Shown here one piece after another: positions 26,649 through 31,354 of a DNA stretch of 64,000 bases. Within the stretch, counting starts at the first letter, position 1; the number at the start of each line of letters is the position of its first letter. Origin of the DNA: Bacillota bacterium. Its GTDB lineage: Bacteria > Bacillota > UBA4882 > UBA10575. The notes beneath the pieces are model-generated. The model ran no database searches and had not been told where the DNA came from. It saw only the letters and a list, made by a program, of their open reading frames with translations. The stretch lies in contig JAAYGU010000124.1 in assembly GCA_012727535.1 (NCBI GenBank), positions 1-64,000 of the forward strand. Direction: 5' to 3'. A program made the translations under genes and the position numbers.

Positions 26649-26678
26649 ATTATAAACGAGTAAGGGAGTGGTTGTCAA
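26649..26678 (-). promoter_or_regulatory. Consensus promoter of yceD-rpmF
   Basis: Minus-strand TTGACA (26678-26673), 18-base spacer, TATAAT (26654-26649): a perfect match in both hexamers. The expected transcription start near 26642 is only about five bases before the annotated ATG. Confidence 0.85.
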
Positions 26679-26732: not shown

Positions 26733-27428
26733 TTATTGGCCCGGACCGGGAAGGAAAATCCCCGCCACCCCTAAAACGCCGATAATCACTAGAAGCAGGC
26801 GGTTCGTCCGCTTTTCCTTGGCCAACTGCTCGTTCAGATCGGCAATTGCTTTCGCCTGCTGCGCCTGGGTCTCCTGGACAGCCGTTAATTGGAGATCAAG
26901 ATCATCCACGCGTCTTTTTTCTTCTAAAATCTGCGCCGCAATCGCACCGACCTCTCTTTGCAAGTCGGTGAGCTCTTCCTGTAGCGTTTTTACCCCTGAG
27001 GTAGTCAGGGTTTGATCCTCTGCTAAAATCAACCTTTCTTCCTCAATTTTCGCTAAGCGTTTCTCCAGTTCCTGATCTTTAATCGTCAGTAAGACTAATT
27101 CATTCTGAAATTCATTGGATAGTTGGCGTTGAAGTCTAAGATCATCGCGGCTGGCCGGTGCCACCCCTTCACCCATATTTACCAGCAGCTTAGCTACGAC
27201 CATTGCCAGCGTATACCGGTCCGCCGGATTATTCCCTCGAAAGGTCCCATCCTCGTAAAGTTCTAAGTAGCCACCATCCACCAGCTTCTTGACCGCCTGA
27301 TAAGCCCAGTCCGGAACATCGGAGAACGGACGCGCCCCAGCGACCGACCCGGCAAGCAATAATAGGACTAAACCGGGTACCAGCAAAAATTTTACCACCC
27401 GTTTACCGGTCAATTTTAAATGTACCAA
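26733..27428 (-). CDS. SLH domain / coiled-coil / C-terminal helix envelope protein (Omp-alpha-like)
   Basis: A 231-residue exported protein. Layout: signal peptide (about 1-32, LLVPGLVLLLLAGSVAGA), one SLH domain (34-82: FSDVPDWAYQAVKKLVDGGYL, DGTFRGNNPADRYTLAM), a continuous charged coiled coil (about 96-208) and a single hydrophobic segment at the very end (LLLVIIGVLGVAGIFLPG, 211-228). This is the plan of Omp-alpha of Thermotoga, whose SLH part binds cell wall and whose rod ends in the outer membrane; here the rod is shorter. Inner-membrane anchoring is the alternative. TTG start with GGGGGGAG upstream, overlapping the previous gene by 26 bases. Last gene of the exbB-exbD-tonB operon. Confidence 0.8.
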   Translation of the reverse strand: MVHLKLTGKRVVKFLLVPGLVLLLLAGSVAGARPFSDVPDWAYQAVKKLVDGGYLELYEDGTFRGNNPADRYTLAMVVAKLLVNMGEGVAPASRDDLRLQRQLSNEFQNELVLLTIKDQELEKRLAKIEEERLILAEDQTLTTSGVKTLQEELTDLQREVGAIAAQILEEKRRVDDLDLQLTAVQETQAQQAKAIADLNEQLAKEKRTNRLLLVIIGVLGVAGIFLPGPGQ

Positions 27429-29511
27429 TTGTCACTCCCCCCTGCTCATTTATCCTAATTTTCAGGCCTTCCACCACAAAGGCCGGTATTTTATCCTGGT
27501 CACTTTGGAGCTTGATATTCGCCGGCAACAGTTCCCATTCGCCGGGCTCTGTTCCTAATTGACAATAAAAGGTCGCGACCGAAGCATTTCCAGTAGCGGT
27601 GGAGGTTCTCGTCCCGCCAATCCCGCTGATTTTCCCGGCGGAAGAATCGATCGTCCCCGGATGCCAGGGCGTCATGGCTTGCTGATCAACAAAGAAGAGT
27701 CCTCTTGACACCCTAATTATCTCCATAAACGCCGGATTATAAAGTAAGTCAAATTCTACGCCGCTGAGCACGGGGAAATGATCGACTCGGGCTTCAAGGA
27801 TAAGTAATTCACCGGCTTGGGGCTTGTTTAAAGCTGTCAAGCGCAGCTTAGGCGTGAGCACCGGTAAACGAACACCCGCTATATACATTACTGGTTTCGT
27901 CGAGTTCGATTCAAATTGGATGCCAAGATAAGACCGTTTACCGATCCCTTCCGGCCGCAAATACCAGGTCAATTCATATTCTTCTCCCGGTTTTAAATTA
28001 CCTACATACCGACGGAGAATCTCTTTCGGTGCCGGTTCCATTCCTTCGCCCAGTTGCAAACTGCCCACGACCCCGTAGGCTTCCGATTCACCCGTATTTT
28101 TAATGCGCGCAGTAATTGGATAAGGATCTGGCGTTACCTGTTCATTTACTACTTTTAACGTTGCCGGAGGGTTAACCGCCAGCGTTAATTTGGGTGGACC
28201 GACAACAGTGACACTTCTTTCCACTCTATTTTCCGGAATATTAATCGCGGAAGCTACCACCGAGAAGGGCATGAGTTTACCGAAAGTCCCGGTTGGCTTG
28301 ACCTCCCAGTGTAATTGGGTCATCTCTCCCGGTTCCAACCGTCCAATATAAATTTCCAGTGGTTTCTTTCCCGTGAGCGCCAGGCCAGTCGGGGGTAGAT
28401 TAAGCCGCGCCCTAGTACTCATCGCTGGACCTGCTCCGGTATTCTGAATATAGGCGACAATCGAAAATGAACGCTCACTCTCGTCCCATAAAACCTCCGC
28501 CGGCGAGCTTACCCCTAACTGCAGTTGACCGGGGACCACCGTTACCCCGCCCAATCCGTAATACATGACATAAGTGGAACTACCGGCGGCCGGTACGGTT
28601 ACCGGTTGCCACATATAAACCGCCGCGCTGTCCAATTCGAACTCGCCAGCCCGAGTAAAATCACGCTCCGGTTCCAGGGGAACATCCCAATGTGAGTCAG
28701 CCACACTACCCCAGTTGGTAAAGTACAGAAAATCCGGCGGGGTCGCCTCTCGCCCCTTCAGGGTACCCTGGGCAATCACTTTTGGCGCGGTTAGGGTATC
28801 AAATGCCTGCCAAAACTCGGGCAGCTGACTTTGCTCTCTCACCGCATCCGTTTGAATTGCGGTCTCGCCAATCCGGAAGGGAGCGCCGTCATTTTCTCCG
28901 AGCATCGTATCGATCACGACCCTCAGCCCAATTTCATGCGCCACCGTATCCCGGTTGATGATGGAATATTTGATCTTCGCCGTATCCGGATAGCCGGTCG
29001 TCGTACTTTCGACAATGGAGATTTCTTGGATGACATCAACCAAGCCTATGCGGCAGGTCATCGTGATACTCCTGAGTTCGGGATCCCAGGTCGGCGGGCT
29101 AACCACCGTTCCGTATTCGCCTGTTCCCCCGGAGCGCTTCTTGGTCGGTCCGCCAAATATGTAGTTCTGCCCATCGATCCGCACCGTGGTAAACGAAGTC
29201 CAGGGTCGCTCAAAACCATAAATTAATACCTGTCCATCATCGTCGGTGCGCAAAGGATCGCCTTGGGTCACCTTCACCCCGAAGCGACCGGTCGCATCGG
29301 CTGAATTATTAACAGCGACCGCAATATAGTCATTTTCTAAAATCAATCTTTCTTGATTCGTTGTATTTAAAAAGAAATCCATCTCCGGCTCTTCCTCTGG
29401 TGGTTCCACAATTGTCACCCCGGGAAGCTGACCCTTTAACCCGGGAGTCACCAGGAAAAGGGTCAAGGCCAGTAGGATAAAGAAGCGGCATTTACGGGTC
29501 TTTGCTTTCAT
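27403..29511 (-). CDS. Large exported protein with CARDB-like and C-terminal cohesin-like domains
   Basis: A 702-residue protein with a signal peptide (about 1-27) and no lipobox. Residues 50-325 form a beta-rich domain that I do not recognise. Residues 335-440 and 441-550 look like two CARDB/Ig-like repeats (each with N-TGEG/ NTGAGPA, then a P-T-W/ HWEVKPTG type strand). The last part (about 555-685) resembles a cohesin: LILEARVDHFPVLSGVEFDLL, YNPAFMEII, then AGKISGIGGTRTSTATGNASVATF. Cohesins bind dockerins in cellulosomes or serve as adhesion modules. ATG with GGAGGAG upstream, overlapping tonB by 20 bases. The position between tonB and the SLH gene implies an envelope role coupled to TonB. 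Confidence 0.7.
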   Translation of the reverse strand: MKAKTRKCRFFILLALTLFLVTPGLKGQLPGVTIVEPPEEEPEMDFFLNTTNQERLILENDYIAVAVNNSADATGRFGVKVTQGDPLRTDDDGQVLIYGFERPWTSFTTVRIDGQNYIFGGPTKKRSGGTGEYGTVVSPPTWDPELRSITMTCRIGLVDVIQEISIVESTTTGYPDTAKIKYSIINRDTVAHEIGLRVVIDTMLGENDGAPFRIGETAIQTDAVREQSQLPEFWQAFDTLTAPKVIAQGTLKGREATPPDFLYFTNWGSVADSHWDVPLEPERDFTRAGEFELDSAAVYMWQPVTVPAAGSSTYVMYYGLGGVTVVPGQLQLGVSSPAEVLWDESERSFSIVAYIQNTGAGPAMSTRARLNLPPTGLALTGKKPLEIYIGRLEPGEMTQLHWEVKPTGTFGKLMPFSVVASAINIPENRVERSVTVVGPPKLTLAVNPPATLKVVNEQVTPDPYPITARIKNTGESEAYGVVGSLQLGEGMEPAPKEILRRYVGNLKPGEEYELTWYLRPEGIGKRSYLGIQFESNSTKPVMYIAGVRLPVLTPKLRLTALNKPQAGELLILEARVDHFPVLSGVEFDLLYNPAFMEIIRVSRGLFFVDQQAMTPWHPGTIDSSAGKISGIGGTRTSTATGNASVATFYCQLGTEPGEWELLPANIKLQSDQDKIPAFVVEGLKIRINEQGGVTIGTFKIDR

Positions 29512-30298
29512 TAATTTCTCCTCCTTCCTCCGGTGAAAGGTAAACGGCCTCCCCGATGTATCTGGGTTCTACTTTATAATCTTCAAAACGAACTTCGAAG
29601 AGAATCTTGTAAGGTTGGGGTGCCGGTTTGAACTTCCATTCCCCGGATTTTAAAATCCTTAAACAATAATCATCCAAAAGGGTATGTCCCGAAGAGACAA
29701 GAATCTGCGGTTCGGACAAAAGTCTCCCTTCCGGGTTAAGATACAGTTCTAATTGGACGGTTCCTTCCAGCCCACGATGTTCGGCACTTTTCGGGTAGGA
29801 AAAACCAGGAGCAAAGAGGACCATTCCCCCGGCGCTGCCTAACGGTGGCAAAGCAGGTACCTCCGGTGCTTGTACAGTCTGGGCTTCACCGGTCTCCGCC
29901 TCGGTCTCGCTCGGCGGAGCAGGCTCTTCCGGTCTGGTCGTAACCGGCTCTCCCGGTTCGGCTTTTGTTTCCCGGGACGCCGGTTGTTCTTGATGCACCT
30001 CTTCCAACCGCGCTACTGCTTCCTCGATTGACCGAGCGGGTGGTTCCGCTGGTGCCGGAGGCTTGGGCTGCGGTGCCGTCTTTTCCTCCGGGGTAACCTT
30101 AACCTGTGCTGTTCGTGCCGCTGCTTTGGGCGGTTCGAGTTCAATCACCCGGGGATGAATCAGCGTATAGTCCAGGCCGCCACCGCTCGCCCCCCAGATT
30201 CCGTTGATCTGCAACAGAAAAAGCAGGGCGTGCAACCCTACAGCCAGCAGAAAAGAGCCGACCACTCTATTTAATTCTCTGGAGCGGAGCTTATTCAT
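29492..30298 (-). CDS. tonB: TonB family protein
   Basis: A 268-residue energy-transducing protein. A single N-terminal membrane helix (VVGSFLLAVGLHALLFLL) contains His23, comparable to the essential TonB His20. A long Pro/Glu/Ala-rich spacer (about 55-155) can span the periplasm. The C-terminal domain (about 166-240) has the TonB pattern FSYPKSAEHRGLEGTVQLEL, LNPEGRLLSEPQILVSSGH, LDDYCLRILKSGEWKFKPAP. It would carry proton-motive energy from ExbBD to outer-membrane partners. ATG with AGGAGG eight bases upstream, 34 bp after exbD. Presence in a Firmicute strongly implies an outer membrane. No TonB-dependent receptor is in the window. Confidence 0.92.
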   Translation of the reverse strand: MNKLRSRELNRVVGSFLLAVGLHALLFLLQINGIWGASGGGLDYTLIHPRVIELEPPKAAARTAQVKVTPEEKTAPQPKPPAPAEPPARSIEEAVARLEEVHQEQPASRETKAEPGEPVTTRPEEPAPPSETEAETGEAQTVQAPEVPALPPLGSAGGMVLFAPGFSYPKSAEHRGLEGTVQLELYLNPEGRLLSEPQILVSSGHTLLDDYCLRILKSGEWKFKPAPQPYKILFEVRFEDYKVEPRYIGEAVYLSPEEGGEINESKDP

Positions 30299-30332
30299 TG
30301 TTTAAACCTCCTAGCTGAACACGCCCCCCAGT

Positions 30333-30740
30333 TTAGCGCTTATTCTTCCTTTCTACCCCAAAGGCCGGTTGGGAAACCCCGGCATCGGTAACCGCATCCA
30401 TCACAGAAATTACTTTTCCATAACTAACTTGCGCGTCAGCATTAATGATCACTAATAAGTTAGGATCCTTGCTCGCTAACGGCGCCAAGGTCCGGGTCAG
30501 TTGGTCAAGGGAGACTGGTTCGGCGCCGTAATAGACCGTCTCCTTTTGGTCAATCGTCACGACAATGCGGTTTTGTTCCAAGCTGACAGCTCGGCTAGAG
30601 GATGGCAGATTCAGCGGGACCCCAGAGACCGCAGTTTTGAACGTCGTAAAATACATAAAAAAGACCAGTACAAAAAAGAGCACATCGATCATCGGGACAA
30701 TATCCAAACGAGGAGTTTTGGGTTTTCGGCTGAACATCAT
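30333..30740 (-). CDS. exbD: ExbD/TolR family biopolymer transport protein
   Basis: A 135-residue protein with a short basic N-terminus, one membrane helix (residues about 14-33) and a periplasmic domain. The helix holds Asp19 in IVPMIDVLFFVLVFFMY, the proton-carrying Asp of the family. The C-terminal fold contains LTRTLAPLASKDPNLLVIINADAQVSYGKVISVMDAVTDAG, typical of ExbD/TolR. With ExbB it forms the proton-driven motor for TonB. The ATG overlaps the exbB stop by four bases. Confidence 0.95.
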   Translation of the reverse strand: MMFSRKPKTPRLDIVPMIDVLFFVLVFFMYFTTFKTAVSGVPLNLPSSSRAVSLEQNRIVVTIDQKETVYYGAEPVSLDQLTRTLAPLASKDPNLLVIINADAQVSYGKVISVMDAVTDAGVSQPAFGVERKNKR

Positions 30741-31354
30741 AATTGTTCACCCCTGTTTCCGTAGTTCTCCAAAAACTCTTTACTCATTTGGTTCATGTTG
30801 GTCAGATTTTTATCGATCATCCGATTGAACCAGTGCATCAGGAAGAGGGAGGGAATGGCGATGATTAGACCGAAAGCAGTAGTAATTAGCGCTTCGGCAA
30901 TTCCCCGACTAAGATCCGCCGCCGAAGGTAAACCCTGCGCTGCCGAGAGAACGTTAAAGCTATCGATAATCCCCGTTACTGTTCCCAACAAGCCCAGCAA
31001 AGGAGCAGCCGTGATAATCACATCGAGTAGACCCAAACCCCGCTCCATCTTCTTAATCTCCAGTTCACCGGAGTCACGCAGACTAGTCTCGATCTGCGCC
31101 CGGTCTTTGCCGTAATATAACAAAGCAGCTTGATACATCCGGGCTACCGGCTGATTCAGTTTTTGCAAATATTGAATTGCTTCCAGGGGAGCATCCTTTT
31201 CCATTAAACGAAAAACGATTCTTCTTATTTCCTCGAGATCTCCACGCTGACTAAGGAAATACCATAGACGCTCAATGGTAATGGTCATAACCAACACCGA
31301 ACATAATAACAGAGGGTACATAACCGGACCACCGCTTAAAAATATTTGCCACAT
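30737..31354 (-). CDS. exbB: ExbB/TolQ/MotA family proton channel protein
   Basis: A 205-residue inner-membrane protein with three helices (about 10-33, 113-132 and 155-175). The family signature AAPLLGLLGTVTGIIDSFN spans the second helix, and ALITTAFGLIIAIPSLF the third, with the conserved small and Thr residues. It stabilises ExbD and TonB and forms the channel. ATG with GAGGAGGAG upstream. First gene of the five-gene envelope operon; a TTGACA hexamer about 80 bp upstream (31437-31432) could be its -35, though the matching -10 is weak. TolQ is an alternative name, but the tonB neighbour supports ExbB. Confidence 0.94.
   Translation of the reverse strand: MWQIFLSGGPVMYPLLLCSVLVMTITIERLWYFLSQRGDLEEIRRIVFRLMEKDAPLEAIQYLQKLNQPVARMYQAALLYYGKDRAQIETSLRDSGELEIKKMERGLGLLDVIITAAPLLGLLGTVTGIIDSFNVLSAAQGLPSAADLSRGIAEALITTAFGLIIAIPSLFLMHWFNRMIDKNLTNMNQMSKEFLENYGNRGEQL

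Follow-up and report, generated by a model that had tools for sequence, protein, structure and literature searches.

A conserved five-gene operon of diderm Bacillota joins an ExbB-ExbD-TonB motor to an exported cohesin-bearing protein and an SLH rod

How energy reaches the attachment of the outer membrane in diderm Terrabacteria is the question that this locus addresses. Both the Tol-Pal system and Pal itself are reported from the Gracilicutes only (PMC12204202, PMC10628300). For atypical diderms, inner-membrane components of Tol-Pal are reported in the absence of tolB and pal (PMC8871954), and undiscovered outer-membrane-stabilising systems were predicted by a 2025 survey (PMC12204202). The window, the whole stretch of 64,000 nucleotides analysed here, comes from a Bacillota bacterium (assembly GCA_012727535.1, contig JAAYGU010000124.1) with a 2.23-Mb draft genome that is 98% complete. 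On its minus strand lie open reading frames for ExbB, ExbD, TonB, a 702-aa exported protein and an SLH protein. An earlier note had described these five genes as overlapping or closely spaced, and the arrangement is real, in the order given there and with a maximal gap of 34 nt. The unit and its nearest promoter are as follows:

30737..31354, minus strand: ExbB/TolQ-type stator subunit, 205 aa; PF01618 (MotA_ExbB) at 5e-31
30333..30740, minus strand: ExbD/TolR-type stator subunit, 135 aa; PF02472 at 1e-28; 4-nt overlap with ExbB
29492..30298, minus strand: TonB/TolA-type force transducer, 268 aa; PF03544 at 3e-13; 34-nt gap after ExbD
27403..29511, minus strand: 702-aa exported protein; CARDB at 2e-5 (Pfam); 20-nt overlap with TonB
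26733..27428, minus strand: SLH rod, 231 aa; Pfam SLH at 2e-5; 26-nt overlap with the gene of the 702-aa protein
26649..26678, minus strand: sigma-70-type promoter TTGACA-18-TATAAT, 12/12 consensus positions; a pattern match, not proof

The unit is flanked by a divergent aminotransferase gene on one side and by DUF177-plsX-fab genes on the other, and the promoter is placed between the SLH gene and the latter. Because the DUF177-plsX-fab genes thus have their own perfect sigma-70-type promoter, the SLH gene is probably the last gene of the five-gene unit.

To place the unit in a wider context, a scan of GTDB species genomes was performed, which returned 166 loci, the best 80 of which were kept for comparison. 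The order ExbB-ExbD-TonB-702-SLH was kept in all 80 of these best loci as far as the contigs reach, and all five genes were called in 66 of the 80; among the irregular loci, one had no called ExbD (L135) and another a split TonB frame (L086). The hosts are unclassified Bacillota metagenome-assembled genomes (MAGs), Hydrogenispora, Limnochordia and cultured Halanaerobiales, the last including Orenia, Halanaerobium, Halanaerobacter, Natroniella, Halonatronum and Frackibacter. Among 101 relatives the 702-aa protein was present in 47, with the operon-type protein in 43 of these, and in 35 relatives' neighbourhoods the same order was found wherever the contig extends; in some of them the gene flanked by ExbD and the 702-aa gene was taken as TonB. 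The shared gene order is not chance. The earlier note's proposal of a gene set conserved in diderm Bacillota is therefore borne out by the 80 best loci, and both the order and the cohesin fold, whose joint absence it had linked to a chance association, were clearly found.

The surroundings of the operon were also partly recurrent. A cell-wall hydrolase gene (PF07486) followed it, directly or after one gene, in 15 Halanaerobiales-type loci (for example L089:10586-11209 and L093:10684-11268; the intervening gene in L085 encodes a nucleoside diphosphate kinase), and this neighbour agrees with a role in wall remodelling. A second SLH protein was encoded shortly upstream of the operon at L053:4311-4901, L055:2033-2767 and L062:11072-11764.

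As judged from the sequences, the first three genes encode an ExbB-ExbD stator with complete motor residues and a TonB-type transducer. The channel threonines (TolQ T145/T178, ExbB T148/T181) were invariant in 69 of 69 operon ExbB homologues, and the proton-carrying aspartate (TolR D23/ExbD D25; D19 in the ExbD of the window) in 71 of 71 ExbD homologues. This conservation is not specific for Tol-Pal, since the same residues also define ExbB and ExbD. The TonB of the window has one transmembrane helix with His23, a proline-rich linker and a C-terminal TonB_C domain (29585-29803). Its motor-contacting histidine was invariant in 30 of 30 aligned sequences, within a helix motif that reads SxxxH in most relatives and AxxxH in the family of the window. 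TonB_C was clear in most members and strongly diverged in a few, where it is missed by Pfam (G035, G059, G067 and G081 among others). With the motor and transducer residues invariant, those of a working proton-driven motor are thus all present. Better NCBIfam scores for TolQ/TolR than for ExbB/ExbD were uninformative about the identity of the stator, because the receptor-linked motor of the same genome scores likewise. In an ExbB tree this receptor-linked ExbB was separate from the operon motors, but long branches leave a single origin of the latter unproven.

The fourth protein consists, from N to C terminus, of a signal peptide, a supersandwich, two Ig-like domains and a cohesin-like domain:

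28492..29370, minus strand: galactose-mutarotase-like supersandwich, residues about 48-340; separate model with pTM 0.86
27877..28488, minus strand: two Ig-like domains (CARDB / NPCBM_assoc type), residues about 342-545; Pfam matches in family members
27412..27864, minus strand: cohesin-like domain, residues about 550-700; family profile against the PDB, and PF00963

An AlphaFold2 model of the whole protein, built with 33 homologues as input, reached a mean pLDDT of 87.7. Since a whole-chain Foldseek search gave generic multi-Ig matches only, the N-terminal domain was modelled alone; it matched the N-terminal domains of GH94 and GH116, aldose epimerases and the periplasmic domain of YidC, with E values near 1e-6 and TM scores near 0.5. 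This supersandwich is the best conserved part of the protein and holds most of its invariant residues. The Ig region was recognized among 33 members by PF10633 (27/33) and PF07705 (16/33). For the C-terminal region, which the earlier note had suspected of a cohesin-like fold, the family profile matched type II cohesins in the PDB with E=2e-10 over its C-terminal positions, and PF00963 (Cohesin) was found in 16 of 33 members (best 4e-10), not including the 702-aa protein of the window itself. An N-terminal hydrophobic segment was present in 79 of 80 homologues and a lipobox-like motif in six. A stretch resembling a TonB box, located where the mature window protein begins, was not conserved among relatives. 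In two genomes (G020 and G022) an exported cohesin-only protein is encoded behind TonB at a second locus (L069:6037-7391, L162:3863-5196), and it is therefore the cohesin domain that appears to be tied to TonB. The supersandwich and Ig part also recurs inside open frames of ~1,200-2,600 aa in genomes that lack Omp85 (G203, G206, G177, G257, G039, G241, G352 and G391).

In the SLH rod of the window, the signal peptide is followed by a single SLH domain (27216-27329), a coiled coil and a C-terminal transmembrane helix (about 26754-26804). PF00395 was detected in 29 of 31 members. Hydrophobic helices were found at the N terminus in 75 of 76 rods and at the C terminus in 66, and a lipobox-like motif in just four. 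The coiled coil is very variable in length, with whole rods of 168-1447 aa. Matching lengths of TonB and rod, as if both spanned one periplasm, were considered at first (rho 0.60) and dropped when independent contrasts gave r=0.07 (p=0.59). The layout of SLH domain, coiled coil and C-terminal hydrophobic helix is that of Omp-alpha (PMC3387000, PMC9388160), and the SLH/coiled-coil tether of the earlier note is thus confirmed as a rod of Omp-alpha architecture. Specifically, the rod shares a signal peptide, an N-terminal SLH domain and a coiled coil with both Thermotoga Omp-alpha (OmpA1) and OmpM/SlpA, and the C-terminal hydrophobic helix with Omp-alpha; it lacks the beta-barrel of OmpM. Operon rods aligned to the por_somb (SLH-porin) profile over positions about 5-110, as against about 7-58 for ordinary SLH proteins, and no por_somb/OmpM match rose above the family cut-off in the 101 genomes. 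Unlike Omp-alpha and OmpM, the rod is linked to a motor operon, and its proposed place in the outer membrane is by analogy. Three SLH proteins were found in the genome of the window, two of which are rods of this type, and the third a 400-aa S-layer-type protein. The second rod (L157:5041-5670; 209 aa, SLH-coiled-coil-helix) shares a neighbourhood (L157:2155-5670 on G000:C61) with a TagA-type transferase and a CsaB-like pyruvyl transferase, the CsaB-like match lying just under the family cut-off; the transferases could possibly form a ligand pathway beside the SLH protein.

We compared the distribution of the operon-type 702-aa protein with that of Omp85 in an even sample of 399 Bacillota genomes, where they occurred in 88 and 102 genomes, respectively. 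Both were present in 87 genomes and neither in 296. The sole carrier without Omp85 was a fragmented MAG (G382). Of the 15 Omp85-positive genomes without the protein, 14 belong to three families (f33, f64 and f75), which are probably Negativicutes, and the other is 84% complete (G223). The operon is thus strictly linked to the outer membrane, nearly genome for genome, and the three families indicate that it is dispensable in some diderms of the group. Together with the conserved motor residues, this supports the energised envelope role that the earlier note had proposed.

A TonB protein raises the question of its receptor. No transporter or receptor gene was found inside the operon in any locus examined, in agreement with the earlier note's statement that a TonB-dependent receptor is lacking; for the genome as a whole this statement does not hold, as one BtuB-like receptor is encoded on another contig, in a receptor-TonB-ExbB-ExbD cluster (L155:312-3982 on G000:C9). 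This separate Ton system, the ExbB of which is unusually short (147 aa), had been overlooked by the note, as had the parallel to the tol-pal gene order. A receptor plug domain was undetected in 19 of 43 operon-carrying genomes, where the operon is nevertheless kept, and most receptor-bearing carriers have a second, stronger TonB_C match near the receptor on the same contig. From this we infer that the operon TonB is dedicated and distinct from that of the receptor. Cross-talk may still occur, since about half of the carriers have a TonB-dependent receptor. A dedicated TonB would also answer a remark in the 2009 genome paper on Halothermothrix orenii, namely that an ExbB-ExbD-TonB set lacking receptors 'may have a different function' (PMC2626281); the 2025 survey reported Ton systems among diderm Firmicutes in Negativicutes only (PMC12204202).

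The closest parallel is the Escherichia coli order tolQ-tolR-tolA-tolB-pal, which matches the unit position by position: stator, stator, transducer, exported protein, wall-binding protein. The two systems share a TolQ/TolR-type motor, a TolA/TonB-type transducer always beside the motor, an exported periplasmic partner and a wall-binding, membrane-linked protein. They differ in the partners themselves. The fourth is a beta-propeller in Tol-Pal and a supersandwich with Ig and cohesin domains in the operon, the model showing beta-sandwiches and no propeller; TolB (PF04052, TolB_N) was found in none of 101 genomes. The fifth is a lipoprotein with an OmpA-type domain in Tol-Pal, whereas in the operon it has an SLH domain in place of the Pal-type OmpA domain, a coiled-coil rod and a C-terminal helix. 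In addition, the operon is without CpoB and is found in Terrabacteria. Since TolB and Pal are both missing, we judge the unit to be Tol-Pal-like and not a member of Tol-Pal. The Ton system has the same motor, the TonB_C domain and the transmembrane histidine, while the operon lacks a receptor, has two extra fixed partners and stands apart from the receptor-linked TonB-ExbB-ExbD of the genome. PorE and vWA force-transducer systems were likewise proposed from genome context and predicted structure (PMC12204202), but comprise other proteins in other taxa.

With a probability of about one half, we read the operon as coding for a trans-envelope machine, powered by protons, that functions in the manner of Tol-Pal but with unrelated partner proteins. 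This reading is suggested by the conserved gene order and its match to tol-pal, the co-occurrence with Omp85, the dedicated TonB, the invariant motor residues, the Omp-alpha layout of the rod, the small number of SLH proteins and the lack of a por_somb/OmpM match above the cut-off in the genome of the window, the TonB-cohesin loci, the absence of TolB, the literature confining Tol-Pal to Gracilicutes, and the hydrolase neighbour. In such a machine the stator would pull or rock TonB across the periplasm, and the C-terminal domain of TonB would engage the 702-aa protein (in the TolB position), most likely near its cohesin domain. The SLH rod (in the Pal position) would bind the cell wall via its SLH domain, and its C-terminal helix would enter a membrane, the outer one by analogy with Thermotoga Omp-alpha. 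The pull would then move or tension the link between wall and membrane, so that the outer membrane stays attached, perhaps when the cell divides.

The classical targets of TonB C-terminal domains are outer-membrane transporters, and uptake or export of the Ton type would follow if the 702-aa protein were the periplasmic partner of an outer-membrane channel, with the supersandwich binding a glycan whose passage is powered by TonB and the SLH rod merely positioning the complex. Galactose-mutarotase-like folds are often sugar-binding, and the concentration of invariant residues in the supersandwich would fit. We nonetheless consider this unlikely, because a transporter gene is absent from the operon in every locus, the operon is present in genomes without a detectable plug domain, and its universal presence across diverse lifestyles suits a housekeeping function better than a single substrate. 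About as unlikely is a motor driven by the proton-motive force for another trans-envelope job, such as secretion, gliding, cell-wall synthesis or the control of hydrolases. Motors of the TolQR kind are used by many systems (PMC12204202), and the hydrolase gene behind the operon in Halanaerobiales-type genomes would suit this reading too, but the almost perfect match between carriers and Omp85, and a tether-like rod as part of the unit, speak for outer-membrane attachment.

The earlier note had also raised an energised surface scaffold, in which the cohesin would display dockerin-bearing enzymes and the SLH protein would serve as anchor. The cohesin-like domain is genuine, and SLH domains are the anchors of cellulosome scaffoldins elsewhere in the Firmicutes. 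However, no dockerin (PF00404) was detected in the genome of the window, there is a single cohesin-like domain, and its usual setting is with TonB and an Omp-alpha-type rod. The constant pairing with TonB, also at the cohesin-only loci, points inwards, and we regard a surface scaffold as very improbable.

No prior description of the five-gene system was found in the open literature that was searched; an earlier mention elsewhere is possible. More tentatively than for the Tol-Pal-like working itself, we suggest that most diderm Bacillota, with the exception of a few families (probably the Negativicutes), may have a functional counterpart of Tol-Pal in which an SLH rod and a periplasmic protein with a cohesin domain are the core and which energises their outer-membrane attachment; force-driven attachment would then have arisen at least twice or predate the split between Terrabacteria and Gracilicutes. 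With a fixed operon, dedicated partners and a near-perfect match to Omp85, the question of energy input becomes directly testable in cultured Halanaerobiales, and the operon bears on how Firmicutes kept or lost their outer membrane.
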